From assembly GCA_027036675.1 (NCBI GenBank), contig JALWDW010000019.1, positions 1 through 38,516 of the forward strand: DNA of 38,516 nucleotides, written 5' to 3'. Positions 2,118 to 38,506 of this stretch are shown here, in pieces (positions within the stretch are counted from its first letter, which is position 1; every line of letters begins with the position of its first letter). Position numbers and translations under genes: made by a program. Below the pieces are notes generated by a model, which was given only the letters and a program-made list of their open reading frames with translations, made no database searches and had not been told where the DNA came from. The stretch comes from Candidatus Dojkabacteria bacterium. GTDB taxonomy: Bacteria > Patescibacteriota > Dojkabacteria > SC72 > JAHDCA01.

Positions 2118-2708
2118 ATGAAAAAAAGAATACTATATCATAATGCCTATGTCCACGTGGTCAACCGTGGCAACCGCAAACAACTCTTATTCGTAGACGA
2201 TTATGATCGGGAACGCTTCCTACTTCGGTTGCAGTCGATCACGGAGGAAACTCGTGACAGAGTAGTGGCATACTGTCTGATGCCAAATCATTATCATTTG
2301 ATGTTTAGGATATACAGTACCACCTCTTTGCGTAAGACGATGCTACGTTTGGGGACGGCGTATGCGAAGTATTTTGCCAAAAAATATTACACCGTAGGAC
2401 ATGTATTCCAGGGACGATATCGCTCTGTCACAGCAAAAGGACTTGCTCACAGGTTGGTAATGATGAGGTACATCCATAGAAATCCGTTGGGAATACGCAG
2501 TTTGGGCTACAACTTCAGAGATTACCCGTGGTCAAGCCACGAAGCTTATATGAATGGTGGGAATGACCCTTATATCAACATAAAAACGCATGGTGTCCTC
2601 CGCCTGTTTCCATCACTGCGAGAATATGAACAATTCGTGATAAGTAGCGACAATGACGCCAAGGCGTATCTAAAAGGGTGGACACCAACCCGTTCTTTGT
2701 TATACTAA
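2118..2708 (+). CDS. REP-associated-type Y1 transposase (RAYT-like)
   Basis: A 196-aa single-strand DNA HUH nuclease of the Y1/IS200-like group. The HUH motif is HYH at 58-60 in LMPNHYHLMF. The GHVFQGRYRS block (94-103) and RYIHRNPL (117-124) follow in the usual RAYT order, and Y118 is the likely nucleophile. Family members nick and join single-stranded DNA at small palindromes. No tnpB and no IS200/IS605 ends are seen, so this looks like a domesticated, REP-type solo gene rather than a complete insertion sequence. It is intact and near usual family length. The upstream 156 nt are AT-rich. The stop lies 4 nt before map, and its last codons contain the map promoter. Whether the palindrome at 391-483 is its target is speculation. 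Confidence 0.88.
   Translation: MKKRILYHNAYVHVVNRGNRKQLLFVDDYDRERFLLRLQSITEETRDRVVAYCLMPNHYHLMFRIYSTTSLRKTMLRLGTAYAKYFAKKYYTVGHVFQGRYRSVTAKGLAHRLVMMRYIHRNPLGIRSLGYNFRDYPWSSHEAYMNGGNDPYINIKTHGVLRLFPSLREYEQFVISSDNDAKAYLKGWTPTRSLLY
2679..2706 (+). promoter_or_regulatory. leaderless promoter of map
   Basis: TGGACA (2679-2684), a 16-nt spacer and TATACT (2701-2706), with TG one base upstream (extended -10, TGTTATACT). The ATG of map begins at 2713, only 6 nt after the -10, so transcription should start at or next to the A of the ATG. No Shine-Dalgarno sequence is present. The whole promoter lies inside the 3' end of the transposase gene. Confidence 0.7.
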
Positions 2709-7225: not shown

Positions 7226-8347
7226 ATGAGTGAGAGCGAAATACAAGAACAAGAAAACCGAGAGTTACAAGAAAAAAGAGAGCAGGGAATGGGAGCGTTG
7301 AAGCGTTTCATACTGTTTGTCGGTATATTGATATTTGGCAGTTTGACGATAGTTGCCATAGCGGATTACAGGTTGCTGTTGGCAATACTGTCTTTCCTTT
7401 GGACTATAGTTGTGATCCTTGTCATTATATTTTTCATATTGGGTGTCTTCATCTTGATAGGGTTACGCAATGAAGTTGGTGAAATTCTGGGGATGCTGTT
7501 TGACGGCTCTCTGAAGATGATAAATCTGGCGGGAGAACTGAAGAAGTTATATGATCGTTTCATCGCTGTCGTGCAAAATATGACCTTGCGGTTGATCCCA
7601 TTGGTGGCGGTTTTCATCACTGTGGTCGTTTATTATATTTTGATTTACCTGTATAAATATGTCGGGAAGACCAGTGATGTGACTATCTTGACCGTAACGC
7701 TGACAATTTTACTGGTTGTTGGGGTCGGTTTGCTGACAGTGCAAAAACGTGACTCACTGGAGGAGTTGACTTTCTGGCAACGTGCCGGTCGCAAATTTAC
7801 CTCCTATTTTCGCGATACGAGCGAGATCATGATGTTTATTTTCTTCATGACTATGGACAGTACGCATCTTTTTTTTCTCCCAGCGTCGTTGAATATACCG
7901 ATCCACGCTCATATATTTTCGTTTGACTTGATGGAAAAAGGGATAGATTTTGCAAAATCACCTTTATTTATGTTGAACCTCATAGTGTTGACTGTGTTTG
8001 TCGAGATGATTCGTAAATCACTGCGTATAGCGTTGGAAGCTAAACGGTTTTACAGGGCCAATGCGCATTTGGTGACGGATGAGAAGGGCAACGACGTAGT
8101 GGCTTTGCTCAAATTCTCTTTGAAAGGAGCTCTTGATTCCTATATGGATGAAATTATTAAGTTTGTGGCGTTTACAACATTATTGGTGATAGTGTTTATA
8201 TTTTTCCCTCGTTTGAAACTTTTTGCCATGGTGGTGGCGAGTGTGACGATGTTTGTCATGGATATACTGATACCTGCGCGATTGTACCAAGATACGACGC
8301 AAGATGACTTGATCAGTCGGATCATAGTGAAGGTCTTCAAGCTGTGA
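7226..8347 (+). CDS. unknown polytopic membrane protein
   Basis: I do not recognise this 373-aa protein. It starts with a charged, Glu/Gln-rich tail (1-24). About eight membrane helices follow, for example at 28-46, 51-80, 122-143 and 152-171, and the last pair is near 316-355. A cytosolic stretch around 175-205 is rich in aromatic and basic residues. Another amphipathic charged stretch lies near 265-305 (EMIRKSLRIALEAKRFYR). No transporter, enzyme or secretion motif is apparent. It stands 31 nt after PBP2 but has its own -10 element placed for leaderless transcription. A role in the envelope is suggested only by its neighbours. Confidence 0.75.
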   Translation: MSESEIQEQENRELQEKREQGMGALKRFILFVGILIFGSLTIVAIADYRLLLAILSFLWTIVVILVIIFFILGVFILIGLRNEVGEILGMLFDGSLKMINLAGELKKLYDRFIAVVQNMTLRLIPLVAVFITVVVYYILIYLYKYVGKTSDVTILTVTLTILLVVGVGLLTVQKRDSLEELTFWQRAGRKFTSYFRDTSEIMMFIFFMTMDSTHLFFLPASLNIPIHAHIFSFDLMEKGIDFAKSPLFMLNLIVLTVFVEMIRKSLRIALEAKRFYRANAHLVTDEKGNDVVALLKFSLKGALDSYMDEIIKFVAFTTLLVIVFIFFPRLKLFAMVVASVTMFVMDILIPARLYQDTTQDDLISRIIVKVFKL

Positions 8348-24252: not shown

Positions 24253-24456
24253 ATGGCTGTAATCGTAAAAGCTGGCGAACATATCGATTCCGCTCTGAAA
24301 AGATTACATCGCGAAGTGATGCGAGAGGGTATCATGGCGAAGTTTCGAGAGAAGATGTACTTCGTTTCCAAGAGTTTTTACAAACGAGAAAAACGAAGGG
24401 AGTGGAAGAAGATGAAACGACGTGCAAGAGCTGCTAGACGTTGCGCGCGAAAATGA
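24253..24456 (+). CDS. rpsU: 30S ribosomal protein S21
   Basis: A 67-aa, very basic protein of the small ribosomal subunit. It shows the bS21 pattern: VIVKAGEHIDSALKRLHREV at the start, then MAKFREKMYFVSKS and an Arg/Lys-rich helix (KREKRREWKKMKRRARAARR). Length is normal. It has a clear promoter and Shine-Dalgarno sequence. The stop overlaps the start of the ybeY-pth gene (ATGA at 24453-24456), which suggests translational coupling of a ribosomal protein with two ribosome-quality enzymes. Confidence 0.95.
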   Translation: MAVIVKAGEHIDSALKRLHREVMREGIMAKFREKMYFVSKSFYKREKRREWKKMKRRARAARRCARK

Positions 24457-25520
24457 TCCGATTCATCCCGACGGTTGAACAAGGTGTCGGTGGCGAATTC
24501 TCAGATCTTTTGGACGAAGCCTCTTTGTCTATGTTATCCCAAACTTTGGAGACTGAGTTACCTGAGGCGAAACTTGGATTTCCACGGTCGGACCGCCGGT
24601 ACACAGTGAATGTCAATATCATCACAAGGGACACAATCAGACGGTTGAACAATTCTTTTCGTGGTCGGGATCAAGCGACCGATGTCCTGTCTTTTGCGAT
24701 GCATGAAGATGGCTTGCTGGGCGAATTATATATCTCACCCGAAACTCTGTATAATGACGATGAATTGGAAATATTTAGATTGATCGTGCACGGTACCTTG
24801 CATATCCTGGGGTATGAGCACGATATATCTCTGGATAAGTGGTTGGCAAGTCCTGCTAGATACAAGATAGAAATGTTTGAAATCCAAGAAGCGGTGATGA
24901 AAAGATTTGGTAAGTTGAAGAAACAAGACGGAAAGGATGCGGACCGGTCGGTATCGAACCGGACCAATCCTTTGTATATAGTCGGGCTTGGCAATCCCGG
25001 CAATGAATACGAACAAACCCCGCACAATGCCGGATTTGAAGCGGTGAACAAGTTGTACGAGCTTTTGTCTTACGATCGCAAACTGAATGTCGGTGATTGG
25101 AAATACGACAAGTATATCGACGGCGATATCGCTACTGTCCGCCAAAACGGACGGGAAATATACGTTTTGGTCAAACCGATGACATATATGAATAGGGCCG
25201 GCAAAACTGTACGTGAATTGATCAAGCGGTTTGAGTTCGACCCGACTGCCGATTTGGTGGTCGTGTACGATGATTTGGATATCCCGTTGGGGAAATATAA
25301 ATTGCAAAAAGCGAAAAAACCAAAGGCTCATAACGGTATAAACGATATTGTGTCGCAAATCGGCGCTATGGACTTTCAGCACCTGCGTATCGGTGTAGAG
25401 ACACGTGCTAGAGACCGCAAAATATCTGGCGAGGAATATGTAGTGAGAAAATTACCCGATGCAGATTGGCAAACCTTGTTGGAAACGGTACAGGAAGCGG
25501 TATCCAGGTTCGAAGTTTAA
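24453..25520 (+). CDS. YbeY-peptidyl-tRNA hydrolase fusion
   Basis: One continuous frame of 355 aa carrying two enzymes. Residues 1 to about 155 are YbeY, the single-strand-specific rRNA endonuclease, with its zinc motif HGTLHILGYEHD (H113, H117, H123) and FRGRDQATDVLSFAM. A short charged linker follows (about 157-172). Residues 174-355 are peptidyl-tRNA hydrolase: VGLGNPGNEYEQTPHNAG with N181 and the catalytic-base equivalent H191, KPMTYMNRAG, VVYDDLDIPLG and AHNGINDI. Both active sites look complete, so the product should be bifunctional. The frame extends to a TTG at 24441, but the ATG at 24453, overlapping the rpsU stop, gives a natural YbeY start. It shares the rpsU promoter. Confidence 0.93.
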   Translation: MIRFIPTVEQGVGGEFSDLLDEASLSMLSQTLETELPEAKLGFPRSDRRYTVNVNIITRDTIRRLNNSFRGRDQATDVLSFAMHEDGLLGELYISPETLYNDDELEIFRLIVHGTLHILGYEHDISLDKWLASPARYKIEMFEIQEAVMKRFGKLKKQDGKDADRSVSNRTNPLYIVGLGNPGNEYEQTPHNAGFEAVNKLYELLSYDRKLNVGDWKYDKYIDGDIATVRQNGREIYVLVKPMTYMNRAGKTVRELIKRFEFDPTADLVVVYDDLDIPLGKYKLQKAKKPKAHNGINDIVSQIGAMDFQHLRIGVETRARDRKISGEEYVVRKLPDADWQTLLETVQEAVSRFEV

Positions 25521-25607: not shown

Positions 25608-28241
25608 ATGGAAACAAAGATAATCGCTCCGGCACTTGTAGAAAAGATAAGAAGAAGCGGGAATGATGTCCTGATCAAAGGTATCCCGAGTCATGCGCTC
25701 AATAATATCTATGAGAAACTCCGTCAAGATATCAGACAGCCTCTAGTGTTATGGCGGTATGAAAATTTGGGTGAATACAGGCGCCTGCGGAAGTCGTACA
25801 TGAGTATCATCAGAGGCGAAGTATTTGCACCGGAGTCCTTGCGGACGCTAGGTTACGATAGAGTGCAAAAAGTAGATGCGATTGGGGAGTATGCCGTGGT
25901 AGGGGACATCGTGACAATATGGGGGATGCACGAACGTTTCCCGATACGTATCGATCTATGGGGAGAAGAAGTGGAAGAGATCGCGGTGTTGGATCCGGAT
26001 ACGCGTCAAAGTCGATACTCTTTGAACAATATCGTTTTGCATATACGAGAAGATCAAGCAAAGATCGTCGATATACCAGATCCAGGTAACGTCAAACCGA
26101 TTTCCCTGGTGTATATAGAAGACAATTTGTTTGTATCGGACGAAGAATTTCCGGAGGTTGTCGATCTAGGATTGCAGAGTGTGCCGTTTCCGCGTGAGAT
26201 TACCGAACACGGTGGTGTATCGCGCCGACGGCAGATCATTGCACAGTTGCAAAATTCCCCCGTGTCGGTGACCAAGATTGTGTATGTGACGACAAACGAT
26301 GACCCTGATCGAACGGTATTGGACGAATATGCGAAGGCAGGTTTTGAAGTGGATATATTGACCATACCGACTACCGATTGGCGGGTCTTTGAGAGAGGAA
26401 TAATTGTCGAGGAAGGGGGGCTTGCCGTTTTGACGGATTTTGAGGTTATGGGCAAAGTGGAACTGTATCCGGCCGGGGTGCGGACGGCGGAACGGTTTTT
26501 GTCTTCCATCAAGGTTGGTGATCTCGTGGTGCATGAAGATCACGGCGTAGGGCGGTTTATAGGGATGGTCAGTCTGGATCGCGGAGGGAGCGGCTTTGTC
26601 CAAAAAGACGGACATTCGCCGATCGATGCGTTTGTATTGCAGTACGCGAATAAGGACAGATTGTATGTGCCGGTTTCGGTGTCGTACAAATTGCATAAAT
26701 ACGTCGGTATCGGTAAGAATGTCAAATTGACCACTTTGAACAACGGCTCGTGGAAGCGTGCGGTGAAAAAAGCGACCGCCGATACTCGCAAATTGGCTGC
26801 CGATTTGGCGCGCATTTACGCGATGCGAAAGACGGTGAAGGTCGAGCCGGTCATCGGCTCGCAGACGGACGAAATGCATATATCTGCGTTCATCGATAGT
26901 TTTCCGTACACGGATACGGAGGATCAAACCGTGGCGACAAGGGAGATCCTTGACGATCTGCGCAGAGATTATCCGATGGATAGGCTATTAGTCGGTGATG
27001 TCGGGTTTGGCAAGACTGAAGTCGCCATGCGAGCGATATTTGCCGTGGTCAATTCGCACAGGCAAGTGGCTTTGTTGGCACCCACAACGGTATTGGTCGC
27101 TCAGCATTTTGAAGTATTGAAAGAACGTATGCGTGATTTCGCCGTCAATATTGAGATGTTGTCTGGGTTCGTCCCTGCAAAGAAGGCGAAGATTATCAAG
27201 GAACGCCTGGCCGACGGTGATATAGATATCATAGTGGGGACGCAAAGTATCTTGCAAGACAGTGTGAAATACAAAGATCTTGCACTTTTGGTGATAGATG
27301 AAGAACAGAGATTTGGTGTCAAACAAAAAGAGAAATTGCGTAAACTTCGCTTAGACCTACATGTGTTATCTCTCAGTGCTACGCCGATACCTCGTAGTCT
27401 GAATATGGCATTGAATGGTGTGCGGGATATTAGTACGATATTGACCCCGCCGGTCGGACGTAAGTCGGTGAAAAATGAATTCGCCAAATTCACGTGGGAC
27501 AAAGTGACCGAAGCCATCACGAAGGAATTGCAACGGGGCGGGCAAGTATATTTTGTGCACAATAGAGTGCGGGATTTGTCCAGATATCTCCGTCAAATTC
27601 GTGCTTTGTTTCCACAGCATACGGTGGAGATTCTGCATGGCCGGATGTCCGGTATGGAGATCCAAAATGTCATGCGGTCTTTTGTGAAGGGTGATATAGA
27701 CGTGCTGGTGACGACTACGATCATACAAAACGGTCTGGACTTGCCAAACGTCAATACGATTATCATAGATAAAGCAAATATGTTCGGTCTGTCGCAACTT
27801 TATCAGCTCAGAGGGCGAGTGGGGCGAGCAAAAAGGCAGGCTTTTGCGTATTTCCTGGTGGGAGAGGCAGATGAGACGACGCAGGGTGCCCGTGTGGATG
27901 GCACGATGGAGGCGATGGGTAGTGAAGTTGTCATGGATATTGGAGTTGATGATAACGTGGTTGTAGTCGACAGGAGGTCTGGGGTGGAGTCGGAGAGTAT
28001 GGGTGATGGTCAACAGCCTATAAAGAGTGGGGCCGGGGATTTGACCGATACTGCGATCGCCAGGCTCAACGCATTGAGAGAGAGCGAAAGGTTGGGGAGC
28101 GGATTTACTCTAGCAAGCAAAGATATCCAAATCCGCGGAGTGGGTAATCTGCTGGGGCGAGAGCAGTCGGGTGTGATCAATGCCGTCGGGTTGGGGATGT
28201 ACATGCGAATGATGGAAGGGTACAGGACCTTGCGTCCTTGA
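25608..28241 (+). CDS. mfd: transcription-repair coupling factor Mfd, short form
   Basis: An 877-aa translocase; E. coli Mfd has 1148 aa. From the N-terminus: a UvrB-like D1b region (LGYDRVQKVDAIGEYAVVGD, 81-100), the RNA-polymerase-interacting CarD-like domain from about 303 (VGDLVVHEDHGVGRFIGM), then RecG-like helicase domains with GDVGFGKTEVA (Walker A, about 463), DEEQRFG (about 564) and the TRG region ending in LGREQSGVINAVG. It stops right after this, so the C-terminal autoinhibitory D7 domain is missing. The N-terminal D1a/D2 part, where UvrA binds, is also mostly missing. An insert of roughly 50 aa, acidic and Val/Gly-rich (about 752-813), interrupts the TRG region. AAGGTG precedes the start. 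Transcript release activity is expected; UvrA recruitment is doubtful. Confidence 0.92.
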   Translation: METKIIAPALVEKIRRSGNDVLIKGIPSHALNNIYEKLRQDIRQPLVLWRYENLGEYRRLRKSYMSIIRGEVFAPESLRTLGYDRVQKVDAIGEYAVVGDIVTIWGMHERFPIRIDLWGEEVEEIAVLDPDTRQSRYSLNNIVLHIREDQAKIVDIPDPGNVKPISLVYIEDNLFVSDEEFPEVVDLGLQSVPFPREITEHGGVSRRRQIIAQLQNSPVSVTKIVYVTTNDDPDRTVLDEYAKAGFEVDILTIPTTDWRVFERGIIVEEGGLAVLTDFEVMGKVELYPAGVRTAERFLSSIKVGDLVVHEDHGVGRFIGMVSLDRGGSGFVQKDGHSPIDAFVLQYANKDRLYVPVSVSYKLHKYVGIGKNVKLTTLNNGSWKRAVKKATADTRKLAADLARIYAMRKTVKVEPVIGSQTDEMHISAFIDSFPYTDTEDQTVATREILDDLRRDYPMDRLLVGDVGFGKTEVAMRAIFAVVNSHRQVALLAPTTVLVAQHFEVLKERMRDFAVNIEMLSGFVPAKKAKIIKERLADGDIDIIVGTQSILQDSVKYKDLALLVIDEEQRFGVKQKEKLRKLRLDLHVLSLSATPIPRSLNMALNGVRDISTILTPPVGRKSVKNEFAKFTWDKVTEAITKELQRGGQVYFVHNRVRDLSRYLRQIRALFPQHTVEILHGRMSGMEIQNVMRSFVKGDIDVLVTTTIIQNGLDLPNVNTIIIDKANMFGLSQLYQLRGRVGRAKRQAFAYFLVGEADETTQGARVDGTMEAMGSEVVMDIGVDDNVVVVDRRSGVESESMGDGQQPIKSGAGDLTDTAIARLNALRESERLGSGFTLASKDIQIRGVGNLLGREQSGVINAVGLGMYMRMMEGYRTLRP

Positions 28242-28267
28242 CCGACGTACGCGCGATGTATTATAAT
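28238..28267 (+). promoter_or_regulatory. promoter of paralogue A
   Basis: TTGACC (28238-28243), an 18-nt spacer and TATAAT (28262-28267). The -35 overlaps the mfd stop codon. Predicted start near 28274. The leader of about 59 nt contains the tiny frame MSMSY (28316-28333), whose stop overlaps the ATG of the next gene as TGATG. Confidence 0.7.
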
Positions 28268-28332
28268 CTCATAGTAGTGTTAACCGCTGCCTTTTGCATT
28301 GCCCCGGGAATTAAAATGAGTATGAGTTATTG

Positions 28333-29979
28333 ATGATTCTAAATTCATTCGAATACCAAGGTACGAAACTCTATGATAACCCTGGCCCATACAGTCCAGC
28401 CACTCATCCATATCACGAACCAATTGTGAAATTAAAAGAAGAGGTTGATGCAGAGAAATTGGTAGCGGATTTTGCGGAGTATGCACGGGAAAAACAGTTC
28501 CCCAGTAGTGAGATCTTCGGTGTAGTACTCGATATGGCGTTGACGAAACTATCGGCCGAACAATATAAAGATATCTTTGAGAATATACGCAAGAACCGTA
28601 AGGCCGCACTGGAAAAAGACAACATTCTACTACCTCCGCAATTAGAAGCCGCTTATTCCGACCAACCCGAACGCCTAGCTCTTGTATACTGGCTGGGTGC
28701 AATGGACGAGGAATTTATCAGAGGAATTGTGCAGAACTCTTTGGAACAATTGCCTGAGGAGTTTAGGCGGAGAATGATAGCGCAAGGTAAGTACGGAGAC
28801 GGACACCCGTTGAAGATCATGTATCGTATGGTCAATGGAGTCGGTAATGATGAATATATGGTGCATAATGTTGGTTTGAGTGTAGGTATCCAATACTCAG
28901 GGAAAGTACAAATAATGGAAGTGCCTGGATTTGATTACACCCTGGAGCATGGCGGTGGAGATCAATGCAGCAAGCATATCAGTCTACATAGTATGCTGGA
29001 CGAAGTGTGTTCTCATGGTCTTAGTATGTCTCCAAAGGGGGCTTTCAATATTGCTGTATATGATCAAAAAGGTAGGCGAACTCGCAGCATTGCTGTCGGT
29101 GCCTATGGAGGACCAAGATGGTTTAATCATCTTGTGGCGAATATGTGGCTACGTAAGGAAATGAATATGGAGAATAGGATATCATACACGGTACGTCATT
29201 CATTGGCGGCGTTACCTAGAGGAGAAAGTAACTTAGCTCTGGATCAGAAGAGTGTACAGCTAGTCGAGCGGGTTGCCTCACCGGAGATATTTGCATTTTG
29301 GCATGATGAATCGAAACGGTTGATGACAGCACTTAAGGCGATGATAGAAACCACTCAGGATCGACGAAGCGGTTCCTTGCGACATATGCAAGATTTTATC
29401 GAGTATCTTAAAGCAGACAATCCGTCAGAAAAATATGGCGCTGCATATTACGCTCTATTGCGACGAAAAGCTCCGCAGGCGTGGATTGAGATGTTGAAAG
29501 AAAAGGACATGGAAGAAATTTTGCCATTGCTCATGTATGCGTATCCCGGTAAGGACATTGAATATAGACGGACAATCAGTGTGATTGCCGAAAAGATGGA
29601 AGATATAATAAATACGCACGACAAATATGCCCTGATGGCAACAGATCCATTTGTTGGCAAAAAGGAAGTTGCGCTAGGAGGAATTTGGAAAGATTTAGTA
29701 GATGAGATGCTTGATGCGGAGACGAGTATGCCTAGAATATCCTTTTTACCGAAGCAAAATATTGATCCACGGACGATGCAGGTCATCTATGTGAAATATG
29801 CTTTGGATCAAATTATCGATGAGAATCTACGACTTATGCATAATGAGGATACCTCCATTGATGATAAATTAGCTAGCCGGCTATTGGTGAATATTGCAAG
29901 TAGATTGCAAGAACTTATCTGGAGGCGACTGGTACAGACTACCTTGCAATCTGGAGACCCCGCAAACGTTGTATCCTGA
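28333..29979 (+). CDS. unknown protein, paralogue A of a three-gene family
   Basis: I do not recognise this 548-aa soluble protein, which has no signal peptide or membrane helix. It is clearly related to the gene at 30979. Shared points in order: PYHEP near residue 26, HPLKIMYRMVNG, PGFDYTLEHGGG, SIAVGAYGGPRWFNHL (about 250-266), MYAYPGKD (about 400) and a C-terminal helix block with YVKYALDQIIDEN and RLQELIWRRL (about 486-536). The central SIAVGA.GGP.WFNHL phrase is the best conserved and may form a binding site. The flanking parts look alpha-helical. The ATG at 28333 is preferred over the TTG one codon earlier. It has its own promoter. Confidence 0.75.
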   Translation: MILNSFEYQGTKLYDNPGPYSPATHPYHEPIVKLKEEVDAEKLVADFAEYAREKQFPSSEIFGVVLDMALTKLSAEQYKDIFENIRKNRKAALEKDNILLPPQLEAAYSDQPERLALVYWLGAMDEEFIRGIVQNSLEQLPEEFRRRMIAQGKYGDGHPLKIMYRMVNGVGNDEYMVHNVGLSVGIQYSGKVQIMEVPGFDYTLEHGGGDQCSKHISLHSMLDEVCSHGLSMSPKGAFNIAVYDQKGRRTRSIAVGAYGGPRWFNHLVANMWLRKEMNMENRISYTVRHSLAALPRGESNLALDQKSVQLVERVASPEIFAFWHDESKRLMTALKAMIETTQDRRSGSLRHMQDFIEYLKADNPSEKYGAAYYALLRRKAPQAWIEMLKEKDMEEILPLLMYAYPGKDIEYRRTISVIAEKMEDIINTHDKYALMATDPFVGKKEVALGGIWKDLVDEMLDAETSMPRISFLPKQNIDPRTMQVIYVKYALDQIIDENLRLMHNEDTSIDDKLASRLLVNIASRLQELIWRRLVQTTLQSGDPANVVS

Positions 29980-30106
29980 CTTATAGCGCGCCGCAAACAA
30001 AGTCAGTGACCACACACGTAGAAGAACGTACATCCTTTATGGTGTATCATAGAGTAATGGGGACTCATATTTACCGCAAATTATATATGGTTTAACTTAC
30101 AGAATA

Positions 30107-30904
30107 ATGTCACTACAGGACAGAGACAAAACAACGCAAGCCCCAGATTCGGAATTGGACCTGAATAGACTGGAGACCTATGCGGTGGAGCTTGGCAAAC
30201 CGGAAGTGCTACGGTTTATGGCGGAAGGGTTTCCTTACGTGATCGAGTATTGGAAGAACATTGGCAAGATACCGAATGGATTTGATGAAACAGATTTTTT
30301 AGTGGAACAATTAGTCCTAACTTATATGTTTAGTACAGATCAACTGTGGGGAGTTGATATCACGCGCAATATGCCTGATGCATTGCGAAGGTTTATGAAA
30401 CCTGGACTTGAAGCCGTTGCAGGGCGGCTGGTCGCTTACGCTTATCCGGGGACGGAACTTGATGAGGAATGGGATGGCTTGGAAGTACTTGCCGACCGGG
30501 TAGAATTTTTTCTTAAAACTTATGTAAAACAGACCACAAGAGCTTCCTATGCAGTAAGCGCGAGCACAAGGGAGGATATGTATTTCGCAGCTATTTTGCA
30601 TCCAGACATGTTCAAGGATCCGCCGGGTACCCACTCGCATGTCCCCGATCTTGGGTTTGAGCCGACGCGATGCCTTATGATCAAGTACGCATTGGATGTC
30701 GTGATTGACAAAAATCAAAATATCATGGGAGACAAAAATTCCAGTAGGTTACAATATACTGATGCGATCGCAATTGTCCGAGCAGCTACACACTTCCAGG
30801 AACTTATATGGCAAAGATATTCGTGGCTGGTATTATTTGGACACGACGGATCCCCTTCGTACGAACTGCGAGAGTACGCCCGGGAACGCAATAGAGGGAC
30901 GTAA
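30107..30904 (+). CDS. unknown protein, paralogue B (C-terminal half only)
   Basis: A 265-aa soluble protein of unknown function. It aligns only with the C-terminal halves of its two neighbours: AYAYPGTELD (about 110-120, compare YAYPGKD and YFVYPGD), then MIKYALDVVIDKN (about 191-203) and FQELIWQRYSW (about 230-240, compare LQELIWRRL and REHLWTRLL). The central GGP.WF.H domain of the other two is missing. The frame is intact and starts cleanly, so this is a short family form rather than an obvious pseudogene, though origin by deletion is likely. The 127-nt gap before it holds a possible -10 (TATCAT, 30045-30050) without a good -35. No Shine-Dalgarno sequence. Confidence 0.72.
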   Translation: MSLQDRDKTTQAPDSELDLNRLETYAVELGKPEVLRFMAEGFPYVIEYWKNIGKIPNGFDETDFLVEQLVLTYMFSTDQLWGVDITRNMPDALRRFMKPGLEAVAGRLVAYAYPGTELDEEWDGLEVLADRVEFFLKTYVKQTTRASYAVSASTREDMYFAAILHPDMFKDPPGTHSHVPDLGFEPTRCLMIKYALDVVIDKNQNIMGDKNSSRLQYTDAIAIVRAATHFQELIWQRYSWLVLFGHDGSPSYELREYARERNRGT

Positions 30905-30916
30905 GAGAAGGAAAAC

Positions 30917-30945
30917 TTGACTTTGATATACCTACACCCTATAAT
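30917..30945 (+). promoter_or_regulatory. near-consensus promoter of paralogue C
   Basis: TTGACT (30917-30922), a 17-nt spacer and TATAAT (30940-30945). This is one of the best sigma-70-type promoters in the window, which suggests strong expression of the gene at 30979. Predicted start near 30952. Confidence 0.8.
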
Positions 30946-30978
30946 AAGTCGTTATATAACCTGATTTGACACAAAGCA

Positions 30979-32838
30979 ATGAAACAAGATTTGATTAAAG
31001 AAAGTGGTGTAGAAAAAGTATTGCCTTCAGGAATAGTTATATTCCCCGGCGGGTATCACGAACCATTTATCGTGATCGATGACGCTGAACGTGACATAGA
31101 TAAAGTGGGGAACTACATTGCCCAAGAGTTCAGAGAGTATGTAGACGAAAATCCTCAAGCGGGAGGCACTGTTTTCCGCACGATCATACAGATGGCTATG
31201 GTTGGTTTGCCCGAAGAAGCCTATGCGGAATTTATGCAAGAAGATTACGAACCCGATGGTTGCAGTGAATGTGATAGTCTATGGCTCAATGAGTTACACA
31301 CCCTTTATCGACAACGCAACCCCCGCCAGAAGTCTGACCCTATGGAAATATCCTTCGTGAAATGGCTGGCCACCCAGGATGAAGGCAGTATTAACAAACT
31401 TACAGAAAATGACCCAGAGCATCCTCTTACGGTGGCGTGGCGAATGACAAAAGGTAAGGCGACCGGTAGTCAGGAGGATGAAGATTCCGGTAGGGAATAT
31501 CCGGTGTATTCACACCATCCGACCTTTGCCATAGGTGTATTGCCGATACCTTTGGACTCAGACACCGAAGAAGGTAAAGCGGTGGTCCATGTAGCGGACG
31601 GATTTGACTATTGGGGGCAGGGTGCTGGTGCGTACGCAGCATACGTCACAAAGAAATTGCAGGCGGCTGCGGATACAGGGGCGAGTTTTGAAGTGCTGAC
31701 TTCTGACAGCATGGCGCAAGCCTTAGTGCCATACATTATTGCGTCTCTTGATAATACTGATGATAATACTGATATTGCTGATGGTGATGGCGAGGCTCGT
31801 ACCATGGGTGTCGAGTACGAGATGCTAAAGCGCAAATGGGTCGCCAGTCAGCTCGGAGTAGACATGAACGATCCTTCTGTTGACGAGTTACTACAGAACG
31901 ATGGTTGTCTAAAAGTCGCGCATCACCGAGGCGCGTATATAGTTGAAGTGCGAAATAAGGATGGCAAGACCATCGGGCATATAGCCATCGGTGCAAGTGG
32001 TGGACCAGCATGGTTTGATCACCTGTTGGTTGACATGTTTGTTCGCGAGAAGCTTCTTGATCGGGAGACGACGATGCCACGAGTGATAACACAAGCGGAA
32101 AGATTGGACGATCATCCAGATGTATATACGTTAGACCATGCGAGCCAGGAAGGGCTACATTCCTGGATGGAGACTGCGTTATACAATGCCCAAGTAGCAG
32201 CAGAAGAAGCGGAGAACGCCGGGATGTACGGAGGAGAACCACCTGTGCAGGACTTGATAAAACAATTTCTACAAAGAATCAACGAAGATCTGCCCGAAGG
32301 TAATACCCATATCCCTGACCCGCTAGTACAGTATCTCGACGATGAAAATAGCGGCGATAGGTTCGCACTCGCATCCTTGGCGTACTTTGTTTATCCCGGT
32401 GATGCCGTGCTCGACTCTGACGCAACAGGTAACGATCTTCGCACGATCGAAGATTTGTCGGCTGATGTGGGTAAACTATTGACTAAGGAGATTTACTCAC
32501 TGGCTTCCGCCGGGGATCAATTCCATACACGCTTGGCTGAGTTGACGGATAGTGTACTCTCGTTGGTGGACGGCAGTCTTTCCACTATCCTAAAGGAGGA
32601 CTTAGAACTGGAATTGGGTAGGACACCATTCCCCGACGATGAGACCGCACGAATAGTCATCGCCAAATGGGTACTGGACGAGATAGAAAACCGCCAAGAA
32701 ACAAAAGTAAATACAAAACAACAACAGGCTGTGGCATCGACGGTGATACCTTATATGCGAGAGCACCTATGGACAAGACTGCTGAATCGGGTGGGTATAC
32801 TCAGAGAGAAAGAAGGTGCGGATTCGTCACCCGCCTGA
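30979..32838 (+). CDS. unknown protein, paralogue C (longest member)
   Basis: A 619-aa, strongly acidic, soluble protein of unknown function without signal peptide or membrane helix. It shares the full layout of paralogue A: GGYHEPF near residue 24, HPLTVAWRMTKG, DGFDYWGQGAGAY, HIAIGASGGPAWFDHL (about 334-349), YFVYPGD (about 469-475) and a C-terminal block with IAKWVLDEIEN and REHLWTRLLNRVG (about 560-608). It has extra Asp/Glu-rich inserts, for example around 160-175 and 255-270 (NTDDNTDIADGDGEA). The acidity might reflect binding to a basic partner or metal, but nothing proves this. Own near-consensus promoter; no Shine-Dalgarno sequence. Confidence 0.75.
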   Translation: MKQDLIKESGVEKVLPSGIVIFPGGYHEPFIVIDDAERDIDKVGNYIAQEFREYVDENPQAGGTVFRTIIQMAMVGLPEEAYAEFMQEDYEPDGCSECDSLWLNELHTLYRQRNPRQKSDPMEISFVKWLATQDEGSINKLTENDPEHPLTVAWRMTKGKATGSQEDEDSGREYPVYSHHPTFAIGVLPIPLDSDTEEGKAVVHVADGFDYWGQGAGAYAAYVTKKLQAAADTGASFEVLTSDSMAQALVPYIIASLDNTDDNTDIADGDGEARTMGVEYEMLKRKWVASQLGVDMNDPSVDELLQNDGCLKVAHHRGAYIVEVRNKDGKTIGHIAIGASGGPAWFDHLLVDMFVREKLLDRETTMPRVITQAERLDDHPDVYTLDHASQEGLHSWMETALYNAQVAAEEAENAGMYGGEPPVQDLIKQFLQRINEDLPEGNTHIPDPLVQYLDDENSGDRFALASLAYFVYPGDAVLDSDATGNDLRTIEDLSADVGKLLTKEIYSLASAGDQFHTRLAELTDSVLSLVDGSLSTILKEDLELELGRTPFPDDETARIVIAKWVLDEIENRQETKVNTKQQQAVASTVIPYMREHLWTRLLNRVGILREKEGADSSPA

Positions 32839-32955: not shown

Positions 32956-35900
32956 ATGAAAAGAACAAAGACCAATTTCCGATCGGAGCAATTGAAGTCA
33001 TTATTACGAAACAAAACGACAAGATTCTTGGCTATGGCCATTATCATTATACTGGGCGGTGTCGGGTTTGCCATGCATCGCGCGTCGGCATCGCCGACAG
33101 TGTATTACAGATCAACCACTGTCGGTTATACTACAAGCCCTTCCTCGTTCAACGCTGAGGGTGATACTGTTGAATTTCATTTGGCTTCACTGGCTTCGTA
33201 TAATCCACCTCCAACCACGATGTTCATTGTCAAAGTCGGCGAAGATGAATTGAAGAAAGTCGATGGCAAATCAGGTGTATATATTGATAATATTGAATAC
33301 CACGATTGTAAACAATCAGAACTTGGGTGTGATTGGCCAGTATCTTACAAGTTGGATGTATCTGGATGGGACTCAGGTTTATATTACGCATATCTTGTCG
33401 ATGGGAAACAAACTGCTTATCCTGGTGGCTTGATAATCGGAAAGAGTTTCTATGAAAATTTTAACTATGTTCCATTCATTATCAAAGACGCCGATCCCCA
33501 TAGTAAAATCCTTGTGCAACTACCAATAGACACATGGGCTGCTTGGGATACGTATAACGACGGGGCGGGTTATTACTCCAGTCCTAATACGACTACAGTA
33601 TCATTCCAACGCCCAATGAAAAAGAAATTTGGTGCGATTAAAAGTGATTCTTATATGCTTTTGAAATGGTTGGCTGATAACGGCTATGATTATGATGTTG
33701 CAGGTGATGTAGATCTAGAGAATTATTCATTTTTGGCACGGTATAAATTACTGATTCCTGTCGGTCATGGGGAATATTGGACTACGAAAATGGCGGATTC
33801 ATTGCGAGAGTTTCGTGATAACGGGGGAAATATCGCTTTTATGACAGGAAATACGATGTATTGGCGTTCTCGGTACAATTCCGCCTCACAAACATTGGAA
33901 ACATATAAATTGGCTTGGCTTGGAATAGATCCTTTTTATAGACCCACTGCTGTGGATTACGATCCTGCCAATGTATCAACCTATTTCCAACCTTCTTTGT
34001 TGACTGGTAATGCGAAGAGGGCTGGATCAGAAAAGTATGACAATATCAAAATCTTAGGTATTCACGGTGACTACGTATCTGGGGTCGGTGGTTACAAACT
34101 ATATAATACGGATAGATCAGAAGTTTCCTGGATTTTCGATGGTGTCGATGTATCTGATGGTGATTTGTTGGGCGATAAAGTTGGATTGGACGAGAGTCGT
34201 GGGTTACTAAATCCTGAAGTTGGTGTGGCCGGTTCTATAGAAACTGATAGAGTAGAGTACTCTATGGTCAACGGGAAACCCGTAGCAAGTCCAAGTTCCG
34301 GCGCACCAGATAATTTGATAATTCTCGGCATAGGTGATATGACGTCGCGTAGGCATAAAGATAGTGACGCATATACTCGTTTGCCGGGTAAAGGGGCTGT
34401 AATGTCTATTTACAACGCTAAACCAGATAAGTATCCACAATGGGGGCAAGGGGCAACGGTATTGCATACAGGCTCGTGGAATTGGAGTAAAAAAGGTCTG
34501 GATAGCCAGCTTTCATATTATGATCCAAGGGTTGCCAGGATTACACGTAATATAATCGATCGTATGAGTGCCGGGAGTCCTATTTCCACTTCACCCGTTT
34601 ATCATCAACATCACATAACTTTGCAACAAGGAGTAGATGGGTATAAGGGATTTGTGAATAATATTTTCAGTGCCACTGCCAACGAGAATCGTGGAGTGTT
34701 ATCCATTCAGAGTATAGATGTATCATCAGCTTTGATTCGGGCTGAACTTCCAGAGTTACCTGACGGTGCTATTGTGGATTCCGCTTCATTGTCGTTATAT
34801 GGATTGATGGAAGGTCATAGAGACTATACAAATCTTATAGATGCGGTGCCAGTTTCGCAAAGCTATAAGACTCTTGGTGGTCAAGGACAGGATGACTTCA
34901 ACAAGGGAGTTCTCCCTGCTGCCGGCAAAGCCATCAGAGATAATTATATATACGGTGGTAGGATAAAAATACATAAGACTCGTGATGGAGAAGGTGGTAG
35001 AACGTGGGGTAAAGACAAATGGCATACATTTGACATTACGAATGCAGTGAAACAATGGTATGATGGAAGCCTTGAAAATAATGGTGTTTTGATATTTAAT
35101 CCAGGGAATAATGTTAGGTATGCATTCGCATCATCTTATAACGATATTGTTTCTAGAAGACCGAAGCTTGATATAGTTTACCACACGGAGAATGATCCGG
35201 TTGCATGTATAGATATTAATACAATTAACGTAACGTCAGCTCCAAAGCGACTTACCATAGAACAGGGACAGAAATTGACCGCTAGTTTTGTCATCAAAAA
35301 CATAGCCGGAAAGCGGCCTGTTTGCGCTCGCCATTACACTGTGTATTCTAAATCAGGTGCGGAATATACATGGAACTTTTCCAGCAAATCACCGGATAAA
35401 GCTAATACGTCCAGATTGGATATATCTCTTGACGATGGTGCAAGTAAGGTCGTGTACATGGCTATGGACACTGGTGCTATGTCTTTAGGTGTGCATGATA
35501 CGATATTTACTGTGTCGACACGTGATAGTTCTGGTGAGGGTGTAGTTTCGAGCAATTTCGGAGTTACGATAAATGTTGTCAAACCCTATGAAGGTTGTCG
35601 AAAGTATGAAACCGAAAACACTATCATACCTATTCATACTGATACGTATTTGGATGCGTGGTTATCAGGAGGTGCATTTGATCCGGCAGATTCCGATCTA
35701 CCAGCAAACAGGACAGTACTACTGGCATTTCCGGACGTACGCGTCCCATTATTTTACAGTGATGTGAATAGTATATTATTGGACCATGATACTGATGTTT
35801 CTATAAAATCTGCTAAATTCCATATCAATGTGTCGAACACGCACGATCAAATTCGTGACTACACTGTACGCAGTATCAAGAAAACGTCAGATATAAATGG

Positions 35901-36216
35901 GACTCCATGGTACGATGATCCGAGCTCCTTGTTGTATATCGTAAATCAACGAGGTATGAATGCTTCTGAGTGGGTACAAGCAAATACTGAATCAGTCAAT
36001 TACGGTACATTGCGCGTATCGCAGAAAGGCTTTGTTGATGTTGATATTACCAACTTAGTTCAAAATTGGATCGATACGTATTCAGATAATAGAGGCTTTG
36101 CATTGGTGCCAAATGATAAGACGCATTTTTATCAGTCATTTAGAAGTAGCGAAGATTCATCCGTACTTAACCGTCGTCCATATATAACCGTGACGTATAA
36201 ATACTGCGTGGAGTAA
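32956..36216 (+). CDS. giant exported protein, dimethylformamidase-like plus DNRLRE-like
   Basis: A 1086-aa protein with a basic N-tail and one membrane helix or signal peptide (about 23-45, ending HRASA). Residues about 180-530 resemble the large-subunit domain of N,N-dimethylformamidase: YNDGAGYYSSP, VDLENYSFLARYKLLIPVGHGEYWT (start about 250) and NGGNIAFMTGNTMYWRSRY (about 290-308). This domain also occurs in many secreted proteins of unknown substrate. Two DNRLRE-like beta domains follow (about 545-745, with WHTFDITNAVKQWYDG, and about 880-1085, with VDVDITNLVQNWID), separated by an Ig-like part (about 755-870). No C-terminal membrane helix is seen. Amide hydrolysis is not established; iron ligands were not assigned. 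Confidence 0.72.
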   Translation: MKRTKTNFRSEQLKSLLRNKTTRFLAMAIIIILGGVGFAMHRASASPTVYYRSTTVGYTTSPSSFNAEGDTVEFHLASLASYNPPPTTMFIVKVGEDELKKVDGKSGVYIDNIEYHDCKQSELGCDWPVSYKLDVSGWDSGLYYAYLVDGKQTAYPGGLIIGKSFYENFNYVPFIIKDADPHSKILVQLPIDTWAAWDTYNDGAGYYSSPNTTTVSFQRPMKKKFGAIKSDSYMLLKWLADNGYDYDVAGDVDLENYSFLARYKLLIPVGHGEYWTTKMADSLREFRDNGGNIAFMTGNTMYWRSRYNSASQTLETYKLAWLGIDPFYRPTAVDYDPANVSTYFQPSLLTGNAKRAGSEKYDNIKILGIHGDYVSGVGGYKLYNTDRSEVSWIFDGVDVSDGDLLGDKVGLDESRGLLNPEVGVAGSIETDRVEYSMVNGKPVASPSSGAPDNLIILGIGDMTSRRHKDSDAYTRLPGKGAVMSIYNAKPDKYPQWGQGATVLHTGSWNWSKKGLDSQLSYYDPRVARITRNIIDRMSAGSPISTSPVYHQHHITLQQGVDGYKGFVNNIFSATANENRGVLSIQSIDVSSALIRAELPELPDGAIVDSASLSLYGLMEGHRDYTNLIDAVPVSQSYKTLGGQGQDDFNKGVLPAAGKAIRDNYIYGGRIKIHKTRDGEGGRTWGKDKWHTFDITNAVKQWYDGSLENNGVLIFNPGNNVRYAFASSYNDIVSRRPKLDIVYHTENDPVACIDINTINVTSAPKRLTIEQGQKLTASFVIKNIAGKRPVCARHYTVYSKSGAEYTWNFSSKSPDKANTSRLDISLDDGASKVVYMAMDTGAMSLGVHDTIFTVSTRDSSGEGVVSSNFGVTINVVKPYEGCRKYETENTIIPIHTDTYLDAWLSGGAFDPADSDLPANRTVLLAFPDVRVPLFYSDVNSILLDHDTDVSIKSAKFHINVSNTHDQIRDYTVRSIKKTSDINGTPWYDDPSSLLYIVNQRGMNASEWVQANTESVNYGTLRVSQKGFVDVDITNLVQNWIDTYSDNRGFALVPNDKTHFYQSFRSSEDSSVLNRRPYITVTYKYCVE

Positions 36217-36294: not shown

Positions 36295-37920
36295 ATGACG
36301 ATTTCTCAACGCTTCGACAAAAATCTGATGTATAGGGTACTTATCGTACTATTGTGGTCGGCCGGCTTACTTTTTTCATACACATATCTTCTTGCGTCAT
36401 TCTTTGACGCTCTGGGTGTGATGCAAATACTACTCTTGGCTATGGTATTTGCCATGCCGGTATTGTTGGTGATCGCATATTCGGTGGAGCGTGGGACTGT
36501 TTATGAAGGTGAACGGTATTTGGCGTACTTAAGCGAGATTATCGGCTTGCAAGACGCAGGTAAGGCTATACGGATGACCGAAGACGTTCTGCGCGACGTA
36601 TATGGCGATAAAAGAGTGATTTTCTTGGGGTATCGCCAAATACAGGCCCGTACGGCCCGCGAGAGTGAAAAGATCGATACTGAAAATACACGACTAGCCA
36701 AGAGGATCCGCACGTTGTTTGGCAGTAAAGAATTTGGCAATTTAATAGATATCGGCCATGAGTACGGGATGACGTACGGCAAGAGAGTGCTAGATGCTTT
36801 GGCCTATTGCCGCAACAAGCGTGTTGCGTATATATTGCGTATAGGCCCCGTGGGTGGTTCATATTTCATCATATTGGACAAGCCACTCCGCATATTTGCG
36901 AATAAACGTAGAGAAGATACGTTCATCAGATTTGTGGCGACCGCGTTGGGCATGAGATACACGCACAACGCGATGTCCGACCGTATATCCAAGTTGAAAA
37001 ACAAGACCGCTTCAATCAAGGATGCGGTCAACGAGGAATTGCGTAAAAAAATATCTATCATAGAGAAACAAAGGCAACGTGAGTTGGATGTGATGGATAT
37101 TATCGGACACGAATTACGCACACCGTTGGCCATGATCAAAATGGCGTTGAGTCTGACGCGACAAAAATTCTTGAGCGTCGAAGATGAGGACGCCAAAAGG
37201 TGGTTTGACAAAATGGACGACACGATCAGCGAAGCTTTGTACAGGGAAACGGCGACTTTGGAGAAGATGTTGAGTACTACGAAGCTGGAGTCATCGCGGA
37301 TGGAAATCTATTTTAGGAAGGTAAACGTGGCGGATTTGGTCCGGAATACAGTGTTTGCCTACAAGACTCAGGCGGAGCAGAAAGGGTTGAAACTCGTGCA
37401 CGGACGTATCCCGAAAGACCTGTATATCTGGGCGGATAAAACTCGGATAGCCGAAGTATTGGACAATTTCGTAAGCAACGCCGTGAAGTACACGGAACGC
37501 GGAAAAGTGCGTATAATGGTGGAGTACGATGCGGATACTGTCAGTGTCCGCGTGGTGGATACCGGTATAGGCATATCCAAACGGCATATGCGTAAGCTTG
37601 GGCAAAAATTCTACCGCGTCGGGCAACACCTGGGTGGCGTCCGCAACGGCAAAAGCGCGTACACTGTAGTCCGGCCCGGAGGGACGGGGTTGGGATTGTA
37701 TGTGGCTTTTCGTCTCTTGCATCTGATGAATGCGGAACTCATAGTGGACAGCAGCAAGGGGCAAGGCTCTACGTTTGGCTTCCGGATAGCAAGGTTCAAA
37801 GGACAAACGGAGTTGCCTTATGATCCTGACGCTAAGCCGAGAAATGTGTTCCGCAGGTTGGGGTGGGACGCGGGCGATGAGGACAGCACCCGCAAGGTTA
37901 TTGGGAAGAAACCCGGGTGA
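36295..37920 (+). CDS. orphan sensor histidine kinase
   Basis: A 541-aa membrane kinase. Two membrane helices (about 13-35 and 42-63) leave only a very short outer loop, so the signal is probably sensed in the membrane or in the cytosol. A cytosolic region (about 70-222) looks like a degenerate GAF-type sensor, followed by a coiled coil (about 228-265). The HisKA domain has IIGHELRTPLAM with phospho-acceptor H272. The ATPase domain has the N-box NFVSNAVKYT (N395), DTGIGIS (422-428) and GGTGLGLYV (462-470), all intact. No response regulator gene lies beside it; the partner must be elsewhere. A clear Shine-Dalgarno sequence supports the start. Confidence 0.92.
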   Translation: MTISQRFDKNLMYRVLIVLLWSAGLLFSYTYLLASFFDALGVMQILLLAMVFAMPVLLVIAYSVERGTVYEGERYLAYLSEIIGLQDAGKAIRMTEDVLRDVYGDKRVIFLGYRQIQARTARESEKIDTENTRLAKRIRTLFGSKEFGNLIDIGHEYGMTYGKRVLDALAYCRNKRVAYILRIGPVGGSYFIILDKPLRIFANKRREDTFIRFVATALGMRYTHNAMSDRISKLKNKTASIKDAVNEELRKKISIIEKQRQRELDVMDIIGHELRTPLAMIKMALSLTRQKFLSVEDEDAKRWFDKMDDTISEALYRETATLEKMLSTTKLESSRMEIYFRKVNVADLVRNTVFAYKTQAEQKGLKLVHGRIPKDLYIWADKTRIAEVLDNFVSNAVKYTERGKVRIMVEYDADTVSVRVVDTGIGISKRHMRKLGQKFYRVGQHLGGVRNGKSAYTVVRPGGTGLGLYVAFRLLHLMNAELIVDSSKGQGSTFGFRIARFKGQTELPYDPDAKPRNVFRRLGWDAGDEDSTRKVIGKKPG

Positions 37921-37927
37921 TTTGCGT

Positions 37928-37933
37928 TATACT
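37928..37933 (+). promoter_or_regulatory. leaderless -10 before the last gene
   Basis: TATACT lies exactly 6 nt before the ATG at 37940, as at map and at 7226. It starts 8 nt after the stop codon of the kinase gene. No good -35 is visible. Confidence 0.5.
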
Positions 37934-37939
37934 CCCACT

Positions 37940-38506
37940 ATGGGCGTGATACCAAGACAACGAGACAGAAGATTCCTGGTTTGGGACGAAGCTGATAAGC
38001 GTGGGTTGAAGCCTTCCGATTGGGGGAGTGCGGACCCTACAGGTTTGGAGGAGAGAACGGTACAGAGTTCCTCCAAGTGGGATGATGCAGGGGCTGGCGC
38101 TGAAGAGGGTAGGAGTGATACGGATCGCGGTTTGTATCAACTCGATTGGCGTATGCCGGAGAGGATCAGTTTTGGTGATTTTACAGAGGCGGCGTATAAA
38201 CATGCTTGTGTCGTGGCGAACCATATATATGAAAAAGGAGGAGATGCGCGGGTACCGTTTGTTTGGCTCTCATATGTGCTAAAAAATACGGCGGATCGGT
38301 ATATTAGGCATATACTGCATAGTCAACCTGACTTTGAAGAAGGAGAGGGTAGGAACTTTTGGGAGGAGTACTATTTATCGACCGATAGAGCTAAAAGACA
38401 CAAAAACGGGGTTAAAGGCCAAAAACGGTTGCTATTTTTGCCTACCCCACTCAAAAGTTGCCTTTTCTTTCAGATAAAAGTGAATGAGTTTCAACTTTCT
38501 ATCTAA
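37940..38506 (+). CDS. unknown small soluble protein
   Basis: A 188-aa protein I do not recognise. The frame is open further upstream into the kinase gene, but the ATG at 37940, placed 6 nt after TATACT, is preferred. The first 70 residues are charged and look disordered (many Asp, Arg, Ser, Gly). A helical part follows (about 75-135, FTEAAYKHACVVANHIYEKG and WLSYVLKNTADRYIRHIL). The last 35 residues are basic then hydrophobic (RLLFLPTPLKSCLFF) and less convincing; the DNA there contains a GGCcAAAAA...TTTTTGCC stem. It sits 19 nt after the histidine kinase, so a functional link to it is possible but unproven. Confidence 0.55.
   Translation: MGVIPRQRDRRFLVWDEADKRGLKPSDWGSADPTGLEERTVQSSSKWDDAGAGAEEGRSDTDRGLYQLDWRMPERISFGDFTEAAYKHACVVANHIYEKGGDARVPFVWLSYVLKNTADRYIRHILHSQPDFEEGEGRNFWEEYYLSTDRAKRHKNGVKGQKRLLFLPTPLKSCLFFQIKVNEFQLSI

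Follow-up and report, generated by a model that had tools for sequence, protein, structure and literature searches.

Three tandem paralogous genes, found in a single Dojkabacteria genome, lie where the mfd-dnaX gene order is broken

Three consecutive genes, here called A, B and C, follow mfd in the window, i.e. in the whole 38,516-nucleotide stretch of Candidatus Dojkabacteria DNA that was analysed, and they raise the question whether they form one protein family, whether that family is already known, and how it came to stand at this locus. The three open frames of the original prediction were present (Table 1), and for each of them the annotated frame was the best of six when scored with a codon-usage model trained on twelve conserved genes in the window. 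For A, the start was placed at the ATG at 28333, with an alternative TTG one codon before. A five-codon ATG frame (ATGAGTATGAGTTATTGA) was noted at 28315–28334, the end of which overlaps the start of A (TGATG); this could reflect translational coupling to A, or chance. Using the Kyte-Doolittle scale, no strongly hydrophobic 19-residue stretch was found in A, B or C (maximum 1.2), and no membrane or signal segment was present, in line with the predicted cytosolic location; the three proteins are probably soluble and cytosolic. Net charges were −11 for A and −12 for B, compared with −59 over the 619 residues of C.

The window was scanned on both strands for sigma-70-like sites. Only two sites matched 11 of the 12 consensus bases in the 38.5 kb, one upstream of A and one upstream of C, and no such site was found before B. 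The predicted consensus-like promoters of A and C were thereby recovered as consensus matches, not measured promoters, and on this basis it is reasonable to regard A and C as probably transcribed separately.

Table 1 Features of the locus (window positions)
Feature	Position	Strand	Description	Evidence
mfd	25608–28241	+	Conserved gene upstream of the trio	Match in 27 of 29 genomes searched (own included)
Sigma-70-like site before A	28238–28267	+	TTGACC, 18, TATAAT	11/12 consensus bases
Gene A	28333–29979	+	548 aa, full-length member, soluble, without membrane segment	Open frame, genome-like codon usage, paralogy to C and B
Gene B	30107–30904	+	265 aa, C-terminal helical region only	26% identity over 156 aa to A 399–544; A+C profile match, E = 1.3e-7
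Sigma-70-like site before C	30917–30945	+	TTGACT, 17, TATAAT	11/12 consensus bases
Gene C	30979–32838	+	619 aa, full-length member, very acidic (net charge −59)	Paralogy to A, z = 24.5; codon usage
GGPxWF unit of C	31924–32055	+	Best conserved A-C block	39% identity over 44 aa (tblastn); 17 of 40 aligned residues identical

Kinship among the three proteins was assessed by local alignment against shuffled sequences, which gave z = 24.5 for A-C, z = 16.2 for A-B and z = −0.1, i.e. chance, for B-C, and by hhalign with single sequences, which gave probabilities of 96.9%, 95.3% and 0.1%, respectively. A and C are approximately 23–27% identical with similarity detectable over nearly the full length, whereas the similarity of A and B is confined to the C-terminal helical region. 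Pairwise alignment, which the original prediction had proposed as a check, therefore held for A-C and A-B and failed directly for B-C; since A matches both others, B enters the family via A. A profile built from A and C recovered B at the E value given in Table 1 (best of 2000 shuffles, 1.2), while a profile of A and B reached C at E = 1.0 compared with 1.4 for the best shuffle, so that C was not clearly separated. With the B-C link being indirect, the predicted tandem paralogy is confirmed: A, B and C are paralogous coding genes in tandem, and the family is real.

The shared motifs that had been described were present in A and C in the same order, namely YHEP (residue 27 in A, 26 in C), HPL (158, 148), GFDY (199, 208), GGPRWF in A and GGPAWF in C (259, 341), YPG (404, 472) and, near the C-terminus, ELIW in A (527) and HLW in C (596). 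Only YPG (113) and LIW (233) were found in B, which lacks the conserved core. The earlier description of B as the C-terminal half of the family can be sharpened: rather than an arbitrary half, B corresponds to the part of A lying beyond the GGPxWF unit, its alignment to A starting just past that unit, at about residue 295, and being significant from about residue 377. Compared block by block, A and C are 42% identical in the GGPxWF unit versus 21–35% in the other well-aligned blocks (a 7-column scrap within the C insert was set aside from this range). As the best conserved block, the unit fits a functional site. Ahead of it, C is longer than A by an insert of about 80 residues. AlphaFold2 models, computed from alignments of two or three rows, were of low confidence (pLDDT 43 for A and 46 for C), and the secondary structure weakly suggests helices, followed by strand pairs at the motifs and again helices. 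An internal duplication of the strand-strand-helix unit was considered and rejected, the repeat score being reached by a fraction of 0.48 of shuffles in A (not significant) and 0.02 in C (weak).

Known families were searched at the levels of sequence, profile and structure. A, B and C gave no match above chance in Pfam, NCBIfam, PHROGs and PADLOC, PDB sequence and profile searches returned no significant match (best E = 0.48), and Foldseek searches with the low-confidence models of A and C yielded only noise, with no match at E ≤ 0.001, a result that such poor models make uninformative. By sequence and profile, the family is thus unrecognised in these collections, as had been proposed. A helical C-terminal stretch of B (residues 225–256) resembles TetR_C_7 (PF14246), but at E = 0.042 the match scored 14.3 bits, under the 22-bit cut-off, and B did not match the DNA-binding N-terminal part of TetR; the match was taken as chance. 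A GlcG/HbpS-type fold for the core, suggested by the order of the motifs, had no Pfam support and was likewise set aside.

Despite these results, A and C might belong to a known family from which they have diverged too far for profiles built from two or three proteins to reach it, a reading to which we give somewhat less than an even chance. Profiles of three rows are weak, the AlphaFold and Foldseek route was short of alignment depth, and A and C have themselves drifted to the low mutual identity given above. Against such hidden kinship, even at E values of up to 5–10 only chance-level scraps were obtained from Pfam, NCBIfam, PHROGs and PDB.

The distribution of the genes was determined in relatives and in wider collections. 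Only the window's own genes were recovered by whole-genome searches with A in 97 genomes (own included), with C in 42 genomes of the order, and with the A+C profile in 86 genomes of the class. The A+B+C profile, run against 380 genomes of the phylum, returned, besides these, two weak matches, which were both taken as chance, one (G278) lying antisense to a beta-CASP-like gene and the other (G092) falling in a 1286-aa frame for which blastp gave no match to any of the three proteins. A fourth copy was not found in the own genome. Pattern-plus-tblastn scans of GTDB contigs and IMG/VR, as well as tblastn of A against plasmids and of C against phages, were empty, their reach being close relatives only. 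As a control, the window protein encoded at 7226–8347, which has no Pfam match either, could be recovered from two relatives (31 and 34% identity), so that the absence of A and C is real at that level in the genomes searched. Genomes in the phylum range from 0.5 to 1.6 Mb, and in the sampling the genus was represented by one genome and the family by one incomplete genome; completeness was 83% for the window's own genome and 73% for the nearest relative, in which absence is therefore weak evidence. The conserved tandem copies that the original prediction had expected in relatives were found in neither the order, the class nor the phylum sample. The lineage restriction it had proposed held, the trio being confined to one genome in everything searched and none of the three samples yielding a relative outside the lineage.

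Alternatively, A, B and C might be ordinary fast-evolving orphans without a specific mechanism in common, with B a truncated copy in decay. This is unlikely, at roughly one chance in five. B lacks the core and has diverged from C past detection, as decay would have it; its frame is nevertheless open over all 265 codons, with no internal stop and with genome-like codon usage.

Gene order around mfd was compared between the own genome and its relatives. In relatives with at least 1 kb of sequence after mfd, dnaX usually follows 80–490 bases past that gene; in a few of the stretches compared the dnaX match begins about 1 kb on or is partial only (L010, L011, L032). Five longer stretches from relatives show mfd followed directly by dnaX, with ybeY and/or pth before mfd in most. 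The genes after mfd in five relatives, with products of 522–632 aa and thus of lengths like those of A and C, were checked as orthologues and rejected, as they are dnaX and show no similarity. In the own genome, the genes after mfd are A, B and C and then those for a secreted DMFA2_C-domain protein and a histidine kinase; dnaX is located on contig C23, where a transposase-like gene and an orphan gene lie upstream of it. A spacing of mfd and dnaX above about 1.2 kb occurs only in the own genome among those with enough sequence. The trio thus stands, as a new observation, where a widely conserved gene order is broken, by rearrangement or insertion.

Several features of the surroundings were recorded separately. 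At window positions 24441–25520, a single 359-aa protein is a fusion of YbeY with peptidyl-tRNA hydrolase; among relatives, one 326-aa frame matches both in G001, and separate frames are present in G006 and G013. The gene after C (32956–36216) encodes a predicted secreted protein of 1086 aa with the DMFA2_C domain and weaker carbohydrate-binding-like matches (CBM96/disaggregatase repeat); in the 59 genomes searched it was found, besides the own genome, only in G014, where a 1968-aa frame gave a weak and partial match. The histidine kinase gene overlaps at its end, by about 100 bases, with a 228-aa frame at 37820–38506 that matched nothing in Pfam or NCBIfam. On C23, upstream of dnaX (L055, 479–5874), two tandem related secreted-looking proteins of 864 and 927 aa are encoded, which had no Pfam or NCBIfam match and near which two tRNA-Pro genes are located.

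A break of this kind could also mean that a mobile element or provirus entered after mfd and that the trio is its cargo or what remains of it, which we consider improbable, more so than decay. The mfd-dnaX gap unique to the own genome agrees with an insertion, as do two transposase genes, the one just upstream of dnaX on C23 and an IS200-like Y1 transposase at window positions 2118–2708. However, no PHROGs, IMG/VR, phage or plasmid match was obtained, element ends were not found, and the trio resembles the remainder of the window in G+C and the conserved genes in codon usage. No clean island inserted as one piece between mfd and dnaX was apparent either: the left part of C23 looks like ordinary cellular genes, which we take, by eye from the translations, to be phospholipid synthase-like, flippase-like and CcdA/thioredoxin-like.

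As the best explanation we propose, with a confidence that falls a little below one half, a lineage-restricted soluble two-region family that was duplicated in place and combines a motif core with a helical C-terminal region, B representing that region alone; hidden kinship to a known family is considered equally likely. The proposal builds on the observed paralogy, on the region of A that is matched by B and on the lack of detected relatives. Duplication in place, at the break in the ancestral mfd-dnaX order, would have given rise to A, B and C. The full-length members would comprise an N-terminal helical region, the conserved core and the C-terminal helical region, in that order; within the core, every strand pair would lead into a glycine/aromatic loop and then a helix (GFDYxxGxG, IAxGAxGGPxWFxHL). 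Most likely, the core loops would bind a small ligand or a partner, the C-terminal region may mediate assembly, and B may act as a partner or spacer subunit that contributes just this region. The two-region layout and the role of the loops are put forward from weak models and from motif conservation between two sequences only. That the trio represents a new fold or ligand-binding family with a putative GGPxWF site, in which the stand-alone B assembles with and tunes the full-length members, much as the original prediction had suggested for the shortened member, is a long shot.

Findings of this kind are already known, since orphan families of one lineage are common in small-genome bacteria. 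For Cand. Patescibacteria, 54,343 lineage-specific clusters of unknown function were reported, 45,788 of them at species level (Vanni et al. 2022, PMC9132574). The trio resembles these clusters as a set of genes of unknown function limited to one lineage, and differs in comprising three divergent tandem members, one of them a single-region copy. Given tens of thousands of such clusters, its interest is modest: as far as the present data go, it adds one more to the very large number of unknown families of small-genome bacteria. Provided that it is expressed, the trio would illustrate in compact form how a family private to one lineage duplicates and sheds a domain, here at the site of a break in a widely conserved gene order, and its chief value would be as a target for structure determination.
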